Of a stretch of DNA of 64,000 nucleotides, positions 5,068 through 41,623 are shown piece after piece. Within the stretch, counting starts at the first letter, position 1; each line of letters opens with the position of its first letter. The position numbers and the translations under genes were made by a program. The stretch covers positions 434,001 through 498,000 of the forward strand of contig NZ_FNCC01000004.1 of assembly GCF_900100955.1 (NCBI RefSeq). The letters run 5' to 3'. Below the pieces are notes generated by a model. It was not told the origin of the DNA. It ran no database searches and saw only the letters and a list, made by a program, of their open reading frames with translations. This DNA is from Lentzea fradiae. GTDB taxonomy: Bacteria > Actinomycetota > Actinomycetes > Mycobacteriales > Pseudonocardiaceae.

Positions 5068-8000
5068 GCCGACCAGGACCTGACCGCGAGCAGTGGCTGG
5101 CGGCGGCGATGACGGGTGGTCTCCCGGAGCCGGCTCTGCACCGCTGGCAGCCCCTGCGAGTGGGCATCGTCAACCTGTGGGAGTACGACCGGGCGGAGTT
5201 CTGGTTCGCCGACGGTCGCTTGGTGCTGCGCGGCGGCAACGGTGCGGGCAAGACGAAGGTGCTCGAACTGACGACCTTGATGTTGATGCGCGGGGAGATT
5301 GGTGCCTCGGTGCTCGATCCGTTCGGATCCCAGCACCGCACGATGCGTTTCAACCTGCTGCCCACGGGGGATGACGACGACCCTCGTGCTCCTTCGGACG
5401 CCGGTCTTGGATACGCCTGGGCCGAGTTCGGCAGGCTCGAAGATGACGGCACGCCGCGGTTCTTCGTGTGCGGGCTCGGTGTGAGCGCCCGTCGTGGCAG
5501 CGGCACCTCCCCGGTGACCACGTGGCACCTGATCACGCATCTGCGTCCGGGCCGCGATCTGAAACTGTCCACGGCCGATCGGCCGCTCGACCAGAAGGAA
5601 CTCAAGAAGATCTCCGGTGTCACGGTGCCCGATGGCGCGGCGCGATACCGAACCGTGGTGGCCTCCGAACTGTTCGGATTGGGCTCCGACGCCTACGACA
5701 ACCTGACCGAGCTCCTCAAGCAGCTGCGCAAGCCCAAGCTCGGCGAACGGCTCAACCCCTCCAGTCTGGCGGAGACGCTGCGCGCGGCTCTGCCACCGCT
5801 CGCGACCGCGGAGGTCACCCAACTCGCCGACGGCTGGGACAACCTGGAGAAGCTGCGCACGGCGGTGGAGCAAACCCGCTGTGCGGCAGTGCGGCTGGCC
5901 GGGTTCGTGCGCACCGGCTGGACCCCCTGGGCGCGCACCGTTGTGCGCCATCGCGCCGACGCGTTGACCGCGGCAACCACCGAGCTGGACCGCACCACCA
6001 AGGACCGCCGCGCTGCGGAAACCGCGCTGACCACGGCCCGTGTTGAAGCCGACGAGCTGGACAAGGACATCCGCCAGGCACGAACGCACCAAAGCGACCT
6101 CAGCACGGAGCTACGCGAGTTGCTGGACAGCCAGGCTTTCCAGGATGCGGTGAGCGCCGCGAGCCGTGTCGACGGACTTCGTAACCAACTAGGGGGACTG
6201 GCAGAGCAACTCGGGGGAGTCGAACAGCGCCACGCAGGTGCGGCTGAGGATGTGGCGCGAGTCGCCGAGTCGGAGGCAGAAGCCGCCTCCGTCATCGAGC
6301 TGGCCGAAGCCGATGTGGTTCAGGCGTCCGAACGCGTCGAGGCAGCCGGACGTCCCGCCGGACTGCACCAGTCGGTTGGTCGACATCTGCCCATTCGCGA
6401 TGTGGCCGCGTTGCGCGCAGATCTCTCGGTCCGCCAAGAGCGCTTCACGCGGTTGCAGCGGCTACGGGCGGAGTTCGAGCGGGCCGAGTCGAACGCGGCG
6501 CGTTCGGCCGATCTGCTCGCCGACCGTGAGTCGGACCTGACCGACGCCGCCGAGCAGCGCGAGGTGGCACGTGATGGCGTCGAGACCGCAGTGGACACCT
6601 TGTGCAGGCAGCTCCGGGAATGGAGCACGAGCGTCGTACTCGCCAAGGCCGACGAGCGAACGGTCGAGTCCTGGTGCGATTTGGTGGCCGAGCTGACCGC
6701 TGTGGACCCGTCGGGCGCCCCCGCAGCACAGCGCGGTGCCTCCCCGGCAGCGGCGGTCACCCGGCACGTCGAGGAGGTTCGCGACGCGCTGAGATCGCGG
6801 CGCGCGGCACTCGTCCACGAGCACGGTGCTCTCGGTGTGGAACGAGAGCAGGTCACAGCGGAACTGGCCGGAGTGCTCGACCGGACCGAGCGCCCACCGA
6901 CCTCTCCGGACTCGTGGCACCGTCGCGATCGGCCACAGCCCGACAGCGGGCTAGGTGCGCCGTTCTGGCGGTGCGTGCAGCCCGTCGCCGAGTTGGCGAC
7001 AGACGAAGTCGACTTGCTGGAGGCGACCCTGGCCGCCGCTGGCGTACTCGATGCCTGGCTGAGCGCCGACGGTGAGCTGATCACCCTGGAAGGAGAAGAA
7101 CAGGCGGACACGGTAGTGCGCGCGGGTGGACCTCTGGCTGACAGGAACCTGACGCAGGTTCTGGAGCCCACTCCGGTCGGTGGTGTCACTCAGATCGCCA
7201 TCCACACCGTGCTCACCTCGATCGGCTGGTACGGCTCTCGCCCTGGCGGAGATGAGGCCGGCACCTGGTTGGCGGCGGACGGAACCTGGCGGTGTGCCGC
7301 CCTGACCGGACGCGTAGAGGTGGCCAGACCCGCCTCGTACTTGGGAGCCACCGCCCGCGAGGCCGCAAGGCAGCGCGAGATCATCCGGTTGCGGACCCGA
7401 CTGGCAGCACTTGAAGAGTCGAGGAGCGAGATCGAAGCCAGGATCGGAGAACTCGACGACGATCTGCGCCGCCTCGCCGAGGAGCTCGGGAGGATTCCGG
7501 GCGAGCGGGTGGTCACCGACGCCGTCACCATCTTGCGGGAGAGGGAACGTCAGGCGGCCGACAGCGAACGCAAGGTGATCTCGGCCAGGAACATCCACCG
7601 GGAGAACGAATCCGCCCAGGACACCGCCTGGGCGGACTTTTCCGCGTATGCGGGCGAACACGCCTTCCCGCTGGACGATCTGGAACGCCTCGACTCGGCG
7701 TTGCGGGACTACCACCAGGCCGTGGGCGATCTGGCCCGCCGCAAGGAACTGCTCGACCTGCACACAGCGACCCTCACACGTCTGCGAACCGACCTGGCCG
7801 GCGCTCAACGCAGGCTCGCCGACGTCAATGCCGAACTGCAAGAACTGCGTGGACGAAAGCGCAAGGCGGAGGTCCGCCTGCGCACCGCGGAAGAGGCACT
7901 CACCAGCGACATCCACGCGCAGTTGGACCGCCGAGCCGAACTTGACCGTCTGGTGAAGCAGGTCGGTCATGAACTCGACGGACTCGGGCAGAGGCTCACT

Positions 8001-9275
8001 GGCGCGCTGGTCGCGGTCACCCGTGCCGAAGAAACCCTTGCCCGGCACGAGGAACGTCGCCAGAGCGCGGAAAGCAGGCGCGACTCTGTGCTCTCTGTGT
8101 GGTGGGAGGTCTACGACGCCGGCCTCGCACAGCCCCTCGGACTGGAAGAACCGGAACGCCGAAGCGTGGAATCCGCGCGCGAGTCGACACGCGCCGCACG
8201 CCGGGAACTACCGGACCCAGGCGACGAGGACCGAGCCTGGAGGCTCTGCTACAGCAAGCTCGAAGCACTGCGACAAGACCTGTTGCCCGATCGCGACGCC
8301 CGCGTGCGGGAGCCGGAACAGGGCGGTGCGATCCAACGTGTGGTCGTCCTGGCCGACAGCTCCGCCGGCTGGCAGGCGCCCCCGATCGCCGCAAACCTGC
8401 TCGCCGACCAGGTACGTGCGCAGGAGAACGCGTTCGACTCCGAGCAGCAACGAGTGCTGACCACCCTGCTCGGTTCCACGTTCATCGAGCACCTCAAGGA
8501 CCGGCTCGACTACACCGCCCGGACGTTCACCGACATCAACAAGCAGTTGGCCAGCCACCCGACGCGGCACGGCAACGCCGTGCAGCTGAAGTGGGAACCC
8601 GACCCCAACGACCCCGACGCGGGCACCGTGGTGGACGCGCTGACCCAGGGCTACCAGCAACTCTCACCCGCGCGCCAGGAAACGGTGCGCGCCTTCCTCG
8701 CACGCAAGATCGACACTGCCAGGGCGGACGCGGCTGCCGGGGGTTCTGCTGACTGGCGGGAGCAACTGTCGACCGCGCTGGACTACCGCGGCTGGCTGAA
8801 GATCTCGCTGCAGTACCGTCCCGGTTCCACCAGCCGCTGGGTGCCGTTCGACGCAGCGAAACACGGTGCCAAGTCCGGCGGCGAGAAGGTCGTGCTGCTG
8901 TCCCAGCCGCTGTTCGCCGCCGCGGTGGTTGCCTACAACGCCGCCAGTGGGCGCGCCCCCCGTTGCGTGTGGCTGGACGAGGCGATGACCGGAGTGGACG
9001 ACGAGATCAAGGCTTCGTTCATGGGCCTGACCGTGAGCTTCGACCTGGACGTGATGCTGACCGCCCACGACGAGTGGTGCAAGTACCCGACAGTCCCGGC
9101 GGTCGCCGTGTACGACCTTGCCAGGCACAAGGGGCTGCCCGGAGTCGATGCCGTTCCGTACCTGTGGTGCGGTGGCGAGTTGACCGCGGTCGCACTACCA
9201 CTTTCGAATGTACGCGCGGCGGACGAAGCGCTGATGACGGCCGACGGCCTGTTCGCCGAGGTGGATGCCGAGTGA
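5064..9275 (+). CDS. jetC: Wadjet-type JetC, SMC/MukB-like ATPase (TIGR02680 family)
   Basis: A 1403-residue SMC-like ATPase. The N-terminal head has the P-loop GGNGAGKT at residues 57-64. Long heptad-rich coiled coils follow (roughly 300-560 and 800-1130) around a central globular part (~590-790). The C-terminal head has the ABC signature KSGGEK at 1270-1275 and Walker B CVWLDEAMTG with D1305/E1306, then a switch-like LTAHDEWCKY. This is the motor of the condensin that in Wadjet/EptABCD systems extrudes loops and recognises plasmid DNA. The TTG at 5064 is chosen because it overlaps the jetB stop and follows gaggagggcgaggg; the frame stays open upstream to 4980, but that part is jetB coding. 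The ATG at 5109 is an alternative. All ATPase motifs are intact. Confidence 0.9.
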   Translation: MSRPGPDREQWLAAAMTGGLPEPALHRWQPLRVGIVNLWEYDRAEFWFADGRLVLRGGNGAGKTKVLELTTLMLMRGEIGASVLDPFGSQHRTMRFNLLPTGDDDDPRAPSDAGLGYAWAEFGRLEDDGTPRFFVCGLGVSARRGSGTSPVTTWHLITHLRPGRDLKLSTADRPLDQKELKKISGVTVPDGAARYRTVVASELFGLGSDAYDNLTELLKQLRKPKLGERLNPSSLAETLRAALPPLATAEVTQLADGWDNLEKLRTAVEQTRCAAVRLAGFVRTGWTPWARTVVRHRADALTAATTELDRTTKDRRAAETALTTARVEADELDKDIRQARTHQSDLSTELRELLDSQAFQDAVSAASRVDGLRNQLGGLAEQLGGVEQRHAGAAEDVARVAESEAEAASVIELAEADVVQASERVEAAGRPAGLHQSVGRHLPIRDVAALRADLSVRQERFTRLQRLRAEFERAESNAARSADLLADRESDLTDAAEQREVARDGVETAVDTLCRQLREWSTSVVLAKADERTVESWCDLVAELTAVDPSGAPAAQRGASPAAAVTRHVEEVRDALRSRRAALVHEHGALGVEREQVTAELAGVLDRTERPPTSPDSWHRRDRPQPDSGLGAPFWRCVQPVAELATDEVDLLEATLAAAGVLDAWLSADGELITLEGEEQADTVVRAGGPLADRNLTQVLEPTPVGGVTQIAIHTVLTSIGWYGSRPGGDEAGTWLAADGTWRCAALTGRVEVARPASYLGATAREAARQREIIRLRTRLAALEESRSEIEARIGELDDDLRRLAEELGRIPGERVVTDAVTILRERERQAADSERKVISARNIHRENESAQDTAWADFSAYAGEHAFPLDDLERLDSALRDYHQAVGDLARRKELLDLHTATLTRLRTDLAGAQRRLADVNAELQELRGRKRKAEVRLRTAEEALTSDIHAQLDRRAELDRLVKQVGHELDGLGQRLTGALVAVTRAEETLARHEERRQSAESRRDSVLSVWWEVYDAGLAQPLGLEEPERRSVESARESTRAARRELPDPGDEDRAWRLCYSKLEALRQDLLPDRDARVREPEQGGAIQRVVVLADSSAGWQAPPIAANLLADQVRAQENAFDSEQQRVLTTLLGSTFIEHLKDRLDYTARTFTDINKQLASHPTRHGNAVQLKWEPDPNDPDAGTVVDALTQGYQQLSPARQETVRAFLARKIDTARADAAAGGSADWREQLSTALDYRGWLKISLQYRPGSTSRWVPFDAAKHGAKSGGEKVVLLSQPLFAAAVVAYNAASGRAPRCVWLDEAMTGVDDEIKASFMGLTVSFDLDVMLTAHDEWCKYPTVPAVAVYDLARHKGLPGVDAVPYLWCGGELTAVALPLSNVRAADEALMTADGLFAEVDAE

Positions 9276-36493: not shown

Positions 36494-37366
36494 ATGATGA
36501 ACCGGCAGCCGCTCCGCCTCGCCGTCTCCGAGGCGGCCAGGATCCTCGCGGACGCGGGGGTGGACAGCCCGCGCGTCGACGCGGAGTACCTGGCCGCCCA
36601 CGTGCTCGGCGTGGAACGGGGGCGGCTGCCGCTCATTCCGCTGGTCGACCCGCCGGTGATCGACCAGCTGCACAAGCTCGTGCGGGTGCGCGCCTCGCGC
36701 ATCCCGTTGCAGCACATCCTCGGCTGGGCTCCGATGGGGCCCGTGGACGTCGAGGTCGGGCCGGGGGTCTTCGTGCCGCGGCCGGAGACCGAGCTGCTGC
36801 TGGAGTGGGGCCTGAAGGCGGTGGCGGGCGTTACGGCACCCGTGGTCGTCGACCTGTGCACGGGCACGGGCGCCCTGGCGCTGGCCATCGCGGCGTCCCG
36901 GCCGGACGCCGTCGTGCACGCCGTGGAGATCGACCCGCAGGCGCTGGCGTGGACCCGCCGCAACGCCGACGCCCGCATCGCGGCGGGGGACACCCCGATC
37001 CGCCTGCACTCCGGTGACGCCACCGACCCGTCCCTGCTGTCCGATCTGGACGGTCAGGTCGACCTGGTGGTGTGCAACCCGCCCTACGTGCCGGAGGGAA
37101 CCCCGGTGCAGCCCGAGGTGGGCGAGCACGACCCGCACCACGCGGTGTTCTCCGGCGCGGACGGCCTGGACGTGATCCGGCACGTCGTGTCGGCCGCCGC
37201 CCGGTGGCTGCGTCCCGGCGGTGCCGTGGCGATCGAGCACGACGACACGCACGGCGAGTCGGTGCCGGCGCTGCTGTCGGCACGCCGGGTGCTCACGGAC
37301 GTGGCCGACCACGCCGACCTGGCCGGACGGCCGCGGTTCGCGACCGCCCGCAAAGCCGGTCTCTGA
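36494..37366 (+). CDS. prmC: Release factor glutamine methyltransferase
   Basis: SAM-dependent enzyme of 290 residues that methylates the Gln of the GGQ motif in RF1/RF2. The N-terminal helical domain ends in SRIPLQHILGWAPMG, followed by VFVPRPETELLLEWGL. The SAM pocket is DLCTGTGALALAIA, and the catalytic NPPY is at 195-198 (VCNPPYVPEG). The ATG at 36494 is 9 nt after gagg; an ATG 3 nt later is equally possible. It normally follows prfA directly in actinobacteria; here two metabolic genes separate them. Confidence 0.95.
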   Translation: MMNRQPLRLAVSEAARILADAGVDSPRVDAEYLAAHVLGVERGRLPLIPLVDPPVIDQLHKLVRVRASRIPLQHILGWAPMGPVDVEVGPGVFVPRPETELLLEWGLKAVAGVTAPVVVDLCTGTGALALAIAASRPDAVVHAVEIDPQALAWTRRNADARIAAGDTPIRLHSGDATDPSLLSDLDGQVDLVVCNPPYVPEGTPVQPEVGEHDPHHAVFSGADGLDVIRHVVSAAARWLRPGGAVAIEHDDTHGESVPALLSARRVLTDVADHADLAGRPRFATARKAGL

Positions 37367-37605: not shown

Positions 37606-37929
37606 TCAGAAGAGCGCGTCGAAGGCCCTCGCCAGGTCCTTCATCTGCTCGCCGACGCCGCGGTCGGCCAGCTCCTCCATCAGGTGGTGCGCGACGTCCC
37701 TGCTCGGCCTGGGCTTGCGCGCCTCCGCCCGCAGGTCGTCGACCGCCTCGATGGTCGCCGTCGGCGCCAGGGTCGCGCGCAGCTCGGCGCGCAGCTCGTC
37801 GAGCAGCCGCAGGACGGCGCTGACGTCCTGGATGCGTCCGATGTGGACGTTGCCGGTCCTGGCGGAGCCGCTGGTGCCCACGTTGCTGCCGATCACCGGT
37901 CCGCGGATCTCGAAGTTCCGTTCGTTCAT
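37606..37929 (-). CDS. Small protein with homotypic-motif-like N-terminus
   Basis: Protein of 107 residues. Residues 4-31 hold the motif GPVIxSNxxTxGxARTG (flanked by N..I before and ..I after), nearly the same as the C-terminus of the upstream membrane protein. The rest is a helical domain (AVLRLLDELRAELRATL, then ARKPRPSRDVAHHLMEEL). The ATG at 37929 overlaps the membrane-protein stop by 4 nt (ATGA), so both are made together. The short Gly/Asn-rich hydrophobic pattern resembles RHIM/BASS-type amyloid signalling motifs in being short, terminal and shared between neighbouring genes, but I cannot assign it to a named motif. It has no enzymatic residues and looks like an adaptor. Confidence 0.72.
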   Translation of the reverse strand: MNERNFEIRGPVIGSNVGTSGSARTGNVHIGRIQDVSAVLRLLDELRAELRATLAPTATIEAVDDLRAEARKPRPSRDVAHHLMEELADRGVGEQMKDLARAFDALF

Positions 37930-39656
37930 GAGCGTTCCTTGGCCTTGCGGATGGACGTGTCACCGGTGCGCGCCTTGCCGGCCGTGGCGATGTTGCTGGA
38001 GATCACCGGGCCGGTGATGTGCACGTTGTTGTTCGTCACCTGCATGGCCTGTTCCATGAACTCGGTGACCGAGATGCCCCTGCTCTCCAGGAACTCGCCC
38101 AGCGTCCGCAGCAGCCGCGACTCCAGCACCTTGATGTAGCGCTCGACGTCGGTGAGCTGGAAGTAGTTGTCGACCTCCTTCCTGCTGGCGAGCTCGCGCA
38201 GGCTGGTCTTGGCGCCGTAGCGCTCGGCGACGAACGTGCCCTCCGCCTGGTGGATGGGCGTCATCCAGCTGACCGCCGTCGCGAACCGCTTCGCGAGCGT
38301 CGCCGGGAACCTCACCAGGTCGGCGGCGGCCTCCAGCAGTGGTCGGCCCGACTGCTCCGGCAGCACGTCGATCTCGCGGTGGCGTTCCACGATCGGGTGC
38401 AGGATGCACGGAGTCCACTCGGCGTAGAGCATCTCGTCGTCGAGCCCGAACGTCAGGTAGGCCGACACGACGACGTCGCGGTCCCACGTCTCGACCTGGA
38501 ACGCGCGATAGTGGCGCATCCACTCCATCGGCCGGGACACCAGACCGTCCACGACGGACCTGTCGACGGTCGTGCGCGGCGAGTGGTCCCTGTCCGGCAG
38601 GACGATCCGCGCCGCCTCGTCGTCGATGTGGTCGACCAGCTCGACCGAGGAGACGACGACCTTGTCGCTCGTCCTGAGCTCCCGCAGCCGGTGGCCGGGC
38701 GAGAGCGAGGGCGACCTGCCCGTCTTCAGCAGCTCCGCGGTGAGGTGCTCGTACAGCTCGACCAGGGTGAACCCGGGCAGCGGCACGTCGGTCTTCGCGC
38801 CTCGGGCGGGCTTCAGCGGCAGCGCCATCGACCACGGCTCGAACATCGTCCCGGACCCGACGAACGGCCGGTAGCCGTGGTAGACGACCACCTGGGCCGC
38901 GTCCGGGTCGTCAGGTTCCTCGTCCTCGTCGACCGGGTACAGCGCGAGCGCTTCGACGTAGCTCGAGTGCCCGAGCCGCCGCAGTTTCCACTCGTTGCGC
39001 CAGAGCCCCTCCTCGCCCGCGCTCGTGCGGAAGTGCGTGCGGCGGAAGCTCTTCGTGACCAGCAGCCAGACGACGACCCGGTCGGCCAGCAGCACCGCGA
39101 AGAGCAGGATCACCGCGACGATCGTGATCGCGAGCCCGGCGTCGTAGCTCTCCGGCTCGTACTCCTCCCAGTAGTAGCTGCTGTACCTGTCGGCGGCGGC
39201 GAGATCTTCCGTGAACTTGTAGAGCACGAAGAACAGCGCGATGACGCTGGCGATCGTGCCGAGCGCGAGCGGTCCGCGCATGTGCGGCGGCAGGGCCTGC
39301 CGCGGCTTGCGCTCGAACGCCGGCCGCGCCGAGGTGGCGAGCGCCGCGCCCACCGCGACCAGGAACCACGCCCCGAGGAACGTTCCGCTTCCGGCGAAGA
39401 GCGCCACCACCGCCAGCACCAGCGCCAGCGAGTCGCGCACCTTGCGCCGCGTGCGCGCCGCCACCGCCTCCCGCAGCACCGCGCCGGCGTTGACGCCCGG
39501 CGAGCGGGGAATCGACCGGGTCGCCTCCACGAGGTACTCGCGAATGGCCGAGTCCGCGAACTCCTCGTCGCGGTGAGCGGCTCCGCAGAGGAAGCGCGTT
39601 GTGTCGTCGCGTAACTTCGGAACTGCCTTTCCTGTCGCTTCCGGCGGAGTTGACAT
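37926..39656 (-). CDS. Membrane protein with C-terminal shared signalling motif
   Basis: Protein of 576 residues. The N-terminal ~70 residues form a cytoplasmic helical segment (RDDTTRFLCGAAHRDEEFA). Hydrophobic segments follow at ~75-110 (SLALVLAVVALFAGSGTFLG), ~130-150 (LALGTIASVIALFFVLY) and ~172-200 (AGLAITIVAVILLFAVLLAD). A large soluble domain extends from ~205 to ~535, with VVVYHGYRPFVGSGTMFEPW and HREIDVLPEQSGRPLLEAA. The last ~35 residues are NVHIT-GPVISSNIATAGKARTG-D, matching the small partner at 15 of 28 positions. I recognise no named family. The ATG at 39656 is chosen over the GTG at 39668. It is divergent from the TIR gene with 175 bp between, suggesting joint control. Confidence 0.72.
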   Translation of the reverse strand: MSTPPEATGKAVPKLRDDTTRFLCGAAHRDEEFADSAIREYLVEATRSIPRSPGVNAGAVLREAVAARTRRKVRDSLALVLAVVALFAGSGTFLGAWFLVAVGAALATSARPAFERKPRQALPPHMRGPLALGTIASVIALFFVLYKFTEDLAAADRYSSYYWEEYEPESYDAGLAITIVAVILLFAVLLADRVVVWLLVTKSFRRTHFRTSAGEEGLWRNEWKLRRLGHSSYVEALALYPVDEDEEPDDPDAAQVVVYHGYRPFVGSGTMFEPWSMALPLKPARGAKTDVPLPGFTLVELYEHLTAELLKTGRSPSLSPGHRLRELRTSDKVVVSSVELVDHIDDEAARIVLPDRDHSPRTTVDRSVVDGLVSRPMEWMRHYRAFQVETWDRDVVVSAYLTFGLDDEMLYAEWTPCILHPIVERHREIDVLPEQSGRPLLEAAADLVRFPATLAKRFATAVSWMTPIHQAEGTFVAERYGAKTSLRELASRKEVDNYFQLTDVERYIKVLESRLLRTLGEFLESRGISVTEFMEQAMQVTNNNVHITGPVISSNIATAGKARTGDTSIRKAKERS

Positions 39657-39831
39657 TGTCCTGTCCACTTTCTGTCATTGAATTAAGCGACGGGTGTCTG
39701 TGCTGGTCACGGACGTGCTGAGACAGCGGACAACGCATATTTCACCCTATCGGTGGCACAATAACGGTGCCAGCTCGGAATGGGGTGCGAATGCCGGAAC
39801 AGCGAATTGTCAATGCGCCGAACGAGGGCAG

Positions 39832-40779
39832 ATGACGCCCTTCCCGGACGCTCCGCCGATCCGCCTCTTCCTCAGCTACGCGCGGCAGGACGACGTGGTG
39901 ATGGACTTCGTCGGCCCGTTCGCCGAGTCGCTGCGGCACTACGCCCACGCCGACCGCGGCCGGGCGCTGGAGGTGTTCCTCGACCGCGACCAGATCGGCT
40001 GGGGCGACCTCGTGCAGCCGGTCCTGCGCGCGGCGGTGCGCGGCGCCACCGCGTTCGTCCCCGTGCTGACCCGCCGCTACTTCGACCGCCCGTACTGCCG
40101 CGAAGAGCTGTTCCTGTTCCACAACCAGGCCGTCGTCGACGGCGTGCGCGGCCTGCTCCTGCCGGTCGTGCTGCTGGGCGAGGACTTCCTCACCGAGGAC
40201 AACGAGGACCTGGCCGTCCGGATCGTGCGCGAACGCCAGCACCGCAGCGTCCGCGAAGCGTGGCTGGAGGGTCCGGGCTCACCGGCGTGGCGACGCACGA
40301 TGGTGGCGCTGGCGTCCGAGGTGGTCGACGCCGTCGAGGCGGCCGAGCAGGCGCTGGCGGCCGGCACCCCCGCCGCCCCCGCCGACGCCGCCGGTGAGCT
40401 GGACCGGTTCTCGGCGGACGTCTCCCGCATGGCCGAGGTCGCGGGCGCCGTCGTCGCGGAGTTCCGGACCCGGCTCGGCGACTGGTCCGGTCTGCTCGCG
40501 GCGGCCACCCGGCTGCGGGACGCCGGTCGCGCGTTCGAACGCCGCGCCTTCGAGGTGGACCGGGTCCTGCGCGTGACCGGTGCGTCGTGGGCGTTCCCGC
40601 CGGAGCTCGACGACGTGCTCCCCGGAGTGGAGGCGTTGCTGGCGAGCACCCACCGCCTGGAGGTCTCCGACGTGCCCGCCCGCCGCACGATGGCGGTGTT
40701 CCGGGAAGGGCTCGTCGCGCTGCGCAGCGGCACGCGGGTCGTCCAGACGTGGCCGGAGTTGCCAAAACCTGGTCAATAA
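39832..40779 (+). CDS. TIR-domain protein
   Basis: Protein of 315 residues. Residues ~8-150 are a TIR domain: box 1 IRLFLSYARQDDVV, the EVFLDRDQIGWGD segment, and VPVLTRRYFDRPYCREELFL with the putative NADase glutamate E91 or E92. VVLLGEDFLTEDN follows. Residues ~165-315 are helical (SADVSRMAEVAGAVVAEFRT, then DDVLPGVEALLASTHRLEV) with no recognised domain; this part may sense a signal. Bacterial TIR domains cleave NAD+ or make signalling nucleotides in defence, and the retained Glu suggests activity. The ATG at 39832 follows gaacgagggcag; the frame is open to 39694 but that segment has no coding look. It is followed by a large hairpin. Confidence 0.85.
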   Translation: MTPFPDAPPIRLFLSYARQDDVVMDFVGPFAESLRHYAHADRGRALEVFLDRDQIGWGDLVQPVLRAAVRGATAFVPVLTRRYFDRPYCREELFLFHNQAVVDGVRGLLLPVVLLGEDFLTEDNEDLAVRIVRERQHRSVREAWLEGPGSPAWRRTMVALASEVVDAVEAAEQALAAGTPAAPADAAGELDRFSADVSRMAEVAGAVVAEFRTRLGDWSGLLAAATRLRDAGRAFERRAFEVDRVLRVTGASWAFPPELDDVLPGVEALLASTHRLEVSDVPARRTMAVFREGLVALRSGTRVVQTWPELPKPGQ

Positions 40780-40972: not shown

Positions 40973-41623
40973 GTGAGCACGGTCTACGACTGCAGCGAAC
41001 CGGACAACCGCGCGGCGGGACTCGCCGCGGCAGCCGGCGCGGTGCGCAGCGGGCGCCTCGTCGTCCTGCCGACCGACACCGTCTACGGGCTCGGCTGCGA
41101 CGCGTTCGACGCCGAAGCCGTCCGGAGTCTTCTCGCCGCCAAGGGCCGCGGGCCCGACATGCCGGTGCCGGTGCTGGTCGGCTCCTGGACCACCATCGAC
41201 GGGCTGGTCCTGAGCGTCCCCCGCCAGGCGCGGGCGCTCATCGAGGCGTTCTGGCCCGGCGGGCTGAGCATCGTGCTGCCGCACGCGCCCAGCCTCGCGT
41301 GGGACCTCGGGCAGACCCGCGGCACGGTCATGCTGCGCATGCCGCTGCACCCGGTCGCGCTCGAGCTGCTGCGCGACGTCGGCCCGATGGCCGTGTCCAG
41401 CGCGAACAAGACGGGGCACCCGCCCGCCGCCAGCGCGCGGGAGGCGCTCGACCAGCTCGGCGACGCCGTGCCGGTGTACCTCGACGGAGGGCTCAGCGGG
41501 GAGAACATCCCCTCGACCATCGTCGACCTCACCGGCCCCGACGCGGTGATCCTGCGCGAGGGCGCGGTCAGCGGAGCCGAGGTCAACGAGGTGCTCGGTG
41601 TCGAGGTGGACGTCGCGCGCTGA
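40973..41623 (+). CDS. tsaC: Threonylcarbamoyl-AMP synthase (YrdC/Sua5 domain)
   Basis: Protein of 216 residues making threonylcarbamoyl-AMP from Thr, bicarbonate and ATP for the t6A37 modification of tRNAs reading ANN codons. YrdC motifs: GRLVVLPTDTVYGLGCDAFD at the start, KGRGPDMPVPVLVG, FWPGGLSIVLPHA, VMLRMPLHPVALELL and the nucleotide-site SSANKTGHPPA. Short TsaC-type without the Sua5 C-terminal domain. The GTG at 40973 lies 7 nt after TAGGCT (40960-40965), with no Shine-Dalgarno, so the mRNA is probably leaderless. It is Rv1301-like and heads the conserved tsaC-wecA-atpI-atp block. Confidence 0.94.
   Translation: MSTVYDCSEPDNRAAGLAAAAGAVRSGRLVVLPTDTVYGLGCDAFDAEAVRSLLAAKGRGPDMPVPVLVGSWTTIDGLVLSVPRQARALIEAFWPGGLSIVLPHAPSLAWDLGQTRGTVMLRMPLHPVALELLRDVGPMAVSSANKTGHPPAASAREALDQLGDAVPVYLDGGLSGENIPSTIVDLTGPDAVILREGAVSGAEVNEVLGVEVDVAR

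Follow-up and report, generated by a model that had tools for sequence, protein, structure and literature searches.

The P1/P2 gene pair of the window

The DNA stretch analysed here (the window) comprises 64,000 nucleotides of the approximately 8.5 Mb genome of Lentzea fradiae and corresponds to positions 434001-498000 of contig NZ_FNCC01000004.1. On its minus strand lie two consecutive genes, here named P2 and P1, which encode a membrane protein with a C-terminal motif (the tail) and a small protein with a similar motif at the N-terminus (the head), respectively (Table 1). Tail and head were found to coevolve across 57 lineages, and the pair is considered below as a candidate amyloid-like receptor and effector. 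The two genes overlap by 4 bp (ATGA), and an equally tight overlap of P2 with its partner gene was seen at many other loci. The closest named P2 loci were those of other Lentzea species, within the Pseudonocardiaceae.

Table 1. Positions of the P1/P2 pair, of the predicted parts of both proteins and of the divergent gene in the window.
Feature	Position	Strand	Details
P1	37606..37929	-	107 residues; disordered N-terminal head motif and predicted four-helix bundle
Head motif of P1, residues 5-30, NFEIRGPVIGSNVGTSGSARTGNVHI	37840..37917	-	Alignment, motif search; AlphaFold pLDDT <50 for residues 1-31
Predicted four-helix bundle of P1, residues 30-106	37612..37842	-	AlphaFold pLDDT 71-91 (ten-residue blocks)
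P2, membrane protein bearing the C-terminal tail motif and a putative cytosolic domain	37926..39656	-	576 residues from ATG; GTG at 39668
Membrane part of P2, four predicted transmembrane helices lying within residues 57-203	39048..39488	-	AlphaFold and hydropathy
Predicted alpha/beta domain of P2, residues 253-543	38028..38900	-	
Tail motif of P2, residues 544-569, NVHITGPVISSNIATAGKARTGDTSI	37950..38027	-	Alignment, motif search; AlphaFold pLDDT <50 for residues 547-576
TIR-domain protein, divergent neighbour of P2	39832..40779	+	315 residues from ATG 39832; GTG at 39694; Pfam TIR_2
pLDDT, predicted local distance difference test.

The tail of P2 and the head of P1 shared 15 of 26 residues in an ungapped alignment and 16 of 33 in the local alignment. 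The local score was 81, a value reached by none of 20,000 shuffled tails (maximum 49). The control set consisted of 748 other adjacent same-strand gene pairs from loci L031-L140 and the window. Their mean tail/head score was 22.0, and a single pair of low complexity scored at least 45, compared with 55 of the 63 P2-partner pairs from the same loci (relatives not thinned). The motif that the preliminary description had noticed at both ends is thus real.

In total, 137 P2 homologues were obtained with our own gene-calling script from the fetched loci, of which L031-L140 and L141-L200 come partly from the same genomes. A same-strand gene was located at most 120 bp downstream of P2 in 112 of them, and a profile of the helical domain, built from 27 partners, matched 92 of these 112 partners at E<1e-3. 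P2 homologues were present in 66 of 200 genomes of the same family, representing 21 of 46 genera. Across the phylum they were detected in 15 of 396 genomes, the source genome included; 11 of these belonged to genus g53, which we take to be Streptomyces. Three of 339 cyanobacterial genomes also contained a P2 homologue.

Coevolution of tail and head

The coevolution set contained 109 pairs and was thinned by P2 identity; L069, L177 and L197 were dropped for want of a usable tail. The partners were compared across lineages by their N-termini only. The motif was almost wholly different between lineages, yet most tails matched the adjacent head, as illustrated by L053 (tail ITITGTNNAPIVTGGVNQGTISGGT, head IAVTGVSNAPIVTGGENHGTISGGT) and L077 (tail NSFNNSQFLGPQNFGEGGSAV, head FNFEGNSFHGPQNFAPGGSAY).

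Below 60% P2 identity (n=57), the mean score of cognate pairs was 68.0, whereas non-cognate, tail-tail and head-head comparisons resulted in 29.2, 32.3 and 36.6, respectively. The tail clearly matched the head next door (score of at least 45) in 47 of the 57 lineages, and the own head was ranked first, ties counted as first, in 37. Below 45% identity (n=37), the cognate and non-cognate means were 66.3 and 28.9 and the own head came first for 25 tails; below 35% (n=19), the corresponding values were 69.8, 28.4 and 15. The own head was at least as similar to the tail as any other P2 tail in 14 of 19, 21 of 37 and 24 of 57 cases. The observed sums of 3875, 2453 and 1326 at n=57, 37 and 19 exceeded the maxima of 20,000 permutations, which were 2131, 1394 and 889, respectively. 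In the set of 19, tail similarity correlated with head similarity (rho 0.46) and not with the identity of the P2 body (rho -0.01); in the set of 57, the two coefficients were 0.29 and 0.20.

Joint changes were also seen at a finer scale. In 17 loci of the Lentzea clade, one motif position was T/T in 13, A/A in three and T/A in one, corresponding to a joint T-to-A change. In L066 (the same genome as L193), both the tail and the head motif are absent, as judged by eye. All these results show that the two disordered ends coevolve specifically. As the simplest cause of this is a direct, self-like contact, tail and head would be expected to touch each other. The homotypic nature of the motif, proposed in the preliminary description, is strongly supported by the coevolution over 57 lineages together with the confinement of the Lentzea motif to the pair (see below).

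The order of the genes is not fixed. In the cyanobacterial loci P1 lies upstream of P2 in L189/L250 and L251 and downstream in L252, and tail and head match irrespective of this order. At the codon level, 475 of 740 identical residues in the 47 pairs scoring at least 45 were encoded by the same codon, compared with 426.8 expected from pooled usage. The excess could be derived from genome-specific or local codon usage, and some shared DNA history may have contributed; as far as codons can tell, recent gene conversion is argued against as the main cause of the match.

A repeated form of the motif was observed at L075 (about 7800-8300, minus strand), where three consecutive open reading frames carry one motif, namely the P2 tail, a frame of 54 residues and the small partner.

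Specificity of the motifs and exchange of the partner domain

Two motif subtypes were searched for in whole genomes, and in both searches only part of the first-look candidates was scored. The Lentzea motif was found in 19 of 24 genomes of the genus as two copies at one locus (E<1e-5), with no other match under E 0.03. The other genomes contained one copy (G665, G140 and G182), a weak match of 0.089 (G656) or none (G653). The VGNQAVG subtype had matches in 5 of 296 genomes of the class. Three of these carried exactly two strong copies at one locus, and the remaining two a single weaker match each, with E values of 3e-4 and 0.009. The Lentzea motif is therefore not widespread in unlinked proteins, being confined to the pair among the 24 genomes of the genus.

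The domain behind the head is not always the same. In L047 (= L175) and L049 (= L178), the head motif is carried by a protein of 221-225 residues which appears cyclase-like by eye and received no name from library or PDB searches. In L090, the place of the partner is perhaps held by a nucleoside phosphorylase (PNP_UDP_1, 6.8e-25). This interchange suggests that the domain behind the head occupies the position of an effector or adaptor.

RHIM-like tails

In Crossiella (L040, L041 and L043) and a few other genomes, the P2 tail resembles the receptor-interacting protein homotypic interaction motif (RHIM), and no matched partner is found next door; L040/L158 and L043/L160 are the same genomes. In a profile search, RHIM-like motifs (E<=0.1) were detected in 12 of the 14 genomes examined. 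The carriers were Bell-sized proteins of 106-115 residues with the motif at the C-terminus, one SEFIR/TIR protein and large proteins with the motif at the N-terminus. Seven of the large proteins were scanned, five of which exceeded the cut-off of NB-ARC and one that of NACHT. This is the architecture of the bacterial amyloid signalling sequences (BASS) as outlined in the excerpted parts of PMC7889193, and the finding of NB-ARC or NACHT domains on 6 of 7 scanned proteins lends further weight to reading the RHIM-like network as BASS. In our reading, which relies on the RHIM core sequence given in the excerpts of PMC7885112, where BASS3 fibrils are also mentioned, the RHIM-like motif would be BASS3 itself.

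A hidden Markov model built from 16 motifs of proteins other than P2 recovered 9 of 137 P2 tails at E<0.01, originating from seven distinct genomes; these 16 motifs, however, came from a search whose profile already contained P2 tails, which makes that step partly circular. With the same model, none of 112 heads and none of 3572 background termini were matched, one of the latter reaching 0.014. The 11 P2 tails matched at E<1 had no matched partner adjacent to them. The tail and head of the window gave no match at E<=1 to the RHIM-like profile, the centre of which is of the VQAG type. In a phylogeny of 73 P2 bodies, obtained after thinning at 70% identity, three changes were forced by well-supported branches to account for the three RHIM-like rows, and the clade of the window was sister to Crossiella (98/85).

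Two further sets of RHIM-like proteins were observed. Crossiella genomes G055 and G108 encode an unlinked protein of 248 residues (L247:1480-2226 and L248:1480-2226, both minus strand), cyclase-like by eye and with a RHIM-like C-terminus, which is possibly a trans partner of the RHIM-like P2 tail. Outside the window, the source genome encodes a DUF7019 protein and an NB-ARC protein with a RHIM-like motif at the N-terminus (L271, L283), and their motif type differs from that of the window.

Predicted structures of P1 and P2

The AlphaFold model of P2 had a pLDDT of 84 and a predicted template modelling score of 0.85, with helices at residues 57-88, 91-109, 124-160 and 171-203. A simple hydropathy scan resulted in three peaks with the looser setting and four with the stricter one. 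Four transmembrane helices are therefore a better description of P2 than the three proposed initially. Judged by eye from the loop charges, both ends of P2 would be cytosolic. The alpha/beta domain is possibly START/helix-grip-like, and no Pfam family matched P2 at E<=1.

The motif was predicted to be disordered in both proteins, on the four-transmembrane P2 as well as on the four-helix P1. A structure search with the predicted bundle of P1 gave no informative match in the PDB, and the Pfam scan of P1 revealed neither a match to DUF5955 (PF19380; gathering cut-off 27.1 bits) nor a recognisable enzyme domain. Among 11 small partners scanned for DUF5955, one was above the cut-off (L122, 32.3 bits), six were sub-threshold and four, including P1, had no match. 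P1 may thus be called DUF5955-like through its homologues only. DUF5955 itself was found in 53 of 61 Streptomyces-like genomes, mostly as a core gene, and the 12 loci viewed (within L201-L230) had no head motif.

Proposed mechanism and alternative explanations

With somewhat more confidence than doubt, we propose that P1 and P2 form a receptor/effector pair which resembles amyloid signalling, has no need for a NOD-like receptor (NLR) and has its motif positions inverted. P2 would be a membrane-anchored sensor, the disordered and probably cytosolic tail of which bears a homotypic motif that is private to the pair and about 25 residues long. P1 would be a small protein of four helices whose disordered N-terminus bears the counterpart of this motif. 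P2 might be triggered by a lipid or another hydrophobic ligand bound in the alpha/beta domain. The tails, once clustered, would then become beta-rich and amyloid-like in fold and would serve as templates for the same conversion in the heads of P1. As a result, P1 would be collected at the membrane and its helical domain switched on as an effector or adaptor. In two lineages the place of P1 would be taken by the cyclase-like protein and in one perhaps by the nucleoside phosphorylase. Having motifs of their own, the lineages would keep their pairs insulated from one another, and the few with a RHIM/BASS3-like tail may connect to proteins that bear the same motif and are encoded elsewhere in the genome. 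The putative amyloid templating is the best fit to the likeness of the two sides, their terminal position, their G/N-rich composition, the hosts and the RHIM-like exceptions. We infer the direct contact, the amyloid fold, the direction of signalling, the trigger, the outcome, the role of P1 as the effector and any link to cell death.

Several findings weigh against this interpretation. The own head was not ranked first for 20 of the 57 tails, and 10 of the 57 scored below 45. One of these ten, L074, results from a start-codon error, and the true head, INISGGSFVGAHSWGSRSKA, matches its tail; the remaining misses are the two P2 copies of L042 together with L056, L059, L062, L066, L089, L090 and L190. 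The nucleoside phosphorylase partner of L090 resembles its tail weakly (score 34, rank 15 of 59). In the gene call, 25 of the 137 P2 homologues lacked a close downstream same-strand gene, among them L163, where a short open reading frame directly after P2 (8686), with a matching head and an early end, was missed by the caller. In L. waywayandensis (L177:7001-8037), the match to P2 ends at residue 249 while P1 is retained. Only one of the 11 scanned small partners passes the DUF5955 cut-off, and the codon excess of 48 equals 3.6 standard deviations if codons are independent.

The most serious alternative, which we regard as unlikely though by no means negligible, is a fixed complex other than an amyloid (a small heteromeric beta-sheet, for example) by which P1 is tethered to P2 at the membrane. 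Coevolution and privacy demand only a specific contact and not polymerisation, which suits such a complex. The mutual likeness of the two sides, however, is more readily reconciled with self-complementary stacking than with a two-sided interface, and the tail is RHIM/BASS3-like in three lineages, BASS3 being the type for which fibrils appear in the excerpts of PMC7885112.

It is improbable that P1 is instead a negative regulator, the head of which caps the P2 tail and blocks the assembly or action of P2, so that P2 would be the active part and P1 antidote-like. Such a role would agree with the tight gene overlap at many loci and with the lack of a recognisable enzyme domain in P1. However, the position of P1 is held by effector-like, enzyme-like domains in L047 and L049 and perhaps L090, and in L177 it is P2 that is truncated and P1 that is kept.

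The pair could also be a sensor for the divergent TIR enzyme, which we find very improbable. The identification of a TIR domain in the preliminary description was confirmed by Pfam (TIR_2, E 2.6e-8), the score with FxsC_Nterm, 33.6 bits, being far below the cut-off of 130; residues E91/E92, counted from ATG 39832, lie in CREEL. The TIR_2 domain adjoins the pair, and the homologous gene is directly upstream of P2 in the window, L141, L149 and L152. Full-length homologues near the pair were found in these four and in L150, L153, L154 and L156. However, a homologue was present in only 9 of the 18 Lentzea-clade genomes (one titled 'Nocardia sp.'), eight at the P2 locus and one apart from it, on a contig that also carries a fragment of P2 (L. 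indica, L186). The fetched locus had none in eight of the 18 and a 21-residue remnant in one. The other loci of L031-L200 contained no homologue of this protein by phmmer at E<=1e-5, other TIR, caspase and NLR families not being profile-searched. No copy of the tail/head motif was seen in the TIR protein. The TIR gene is accessory and no conserved part of the P1/P2 pair, and the TIR signalling module initially envisaged was not borne out.

Finally, a likeness of tail and head made by recent duplication, gene conversion or an overlapping-reading-frame artefact is hardly credible: the 4-bp overlap and the slightly raised codon agreement would accord with it, but that agreement is far from identity and the match is retained where P1 precedes P2.

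Comparison with known systems

In BASS systems, as presented in the excerpts of PMC7889193, PMC8086366 and PMC12261475, the N-terminus of an NLR is paired with the C-terminus of an effector. The P1/P2 pair shares with them a terminal motif of about 20-40 residues matched between neighbouring genes, the many sequence families, a small alpha-helical partner (the Bell effectors in BASS) and actinobacterial and cyanobacterial hosts. In contrast to BASS as described there, the partner of P1 is a four-transmembrane protein and no NLR, and the motif is located at the C-terminus of the putative receptor P2 and at the N-terminus of the putative effector P1. These two differences place P1/P2 outside BASS by definition, though it seems to work alike. 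The likeness to RHIM/BASS3 concerns the tail of three P2 lineages and the same motif type on NB-ARC/NACHT, Bell-sized and SEFIR/TIR proteins there, whereas most lineages, the window included, carry other motifs and the RHIM-like P2s are without a linked matched partner.

The fungal PUASM and HET-S/NWD2 systems also have adjacent genes with matched terminal motifs, and PNP_UDP effectors occur among them (excerpts of PMC9815663 and PMC7889193). By eye only, the PUASM peptide shown in the former resembles the motifs of L086-L088. Unlike P1/P2, these fungal systems are NLR-dependent in the excerpted accounts and the effector motif is C-terminal. The effector-associated and Death-like adaptor domains treated in the excerpts of PMC8195603 are likewise modular terminal homotypic adaptors that connect effector to sensor; they are mostly folded and alpha-helical, whereas the P1/P2 motif is disordered and has about 25 residues.

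Signalling amyloids independent of NLRs are named as an open question in the excerpts of PMC7889193. P1/P2 might belong to a large unrecognised class of such signalosomes in multicellular bacteria, in which assembly of the cognate helical effector is nucleated by the membrane sensor by means of private, fast-changing amyloid barcodes. Dozens of orthogonal, prion-like codes would then have arisen on a single scaffold, exchangeable with the RHIM/BASS3 code; we put the chances of this broader view at slightly less than even. Within the family, many natural motif pairs have diverged jointly on a common scaffold, and evolution has thereby provided both matched and mismatched controls. Should the motifs be amyloid, a collection of orthogonal tags for self-assembly would already be available, together with an example of assembly started by a membrane protein and not by an NLR. 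Otherwise, the family would still represent a rare case in nature of short motifs that pair in mutual insulation.

Gene neighbourhood of the pair

In the window, the three-gene module is bracketed by genes at 36494-37366 and 40973-41623, which by reading alone are presumably prmC and tsaC, respectively. In mycobacteria, prmC and tsaC are normally adjacent. At the L177 locus, the motif of the retained P1 contains an insertion and only a remnant of the TIR gene is present. The P2 homologues of L137-L140 (g53) are distant ones that lack both tail and partner, and each adjoins a similar opposite-strand gene that appears HIT-family-like to the eye.

Two older neighbours of the pair were recognised, neither of which had a Pfam or NCBIfam family above chance. 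One is a divergent protein of about 170 residues with a hydrophobic C-terminal part, occurring in 12 P2 lineages (L037:11051-11584, plus strand). The other, a protein of about 190-220 residues with an 'IPxGW' region, is encoded directly upstream of P2 in 10 P2 lineages (L037:10278-10841, minus strand).

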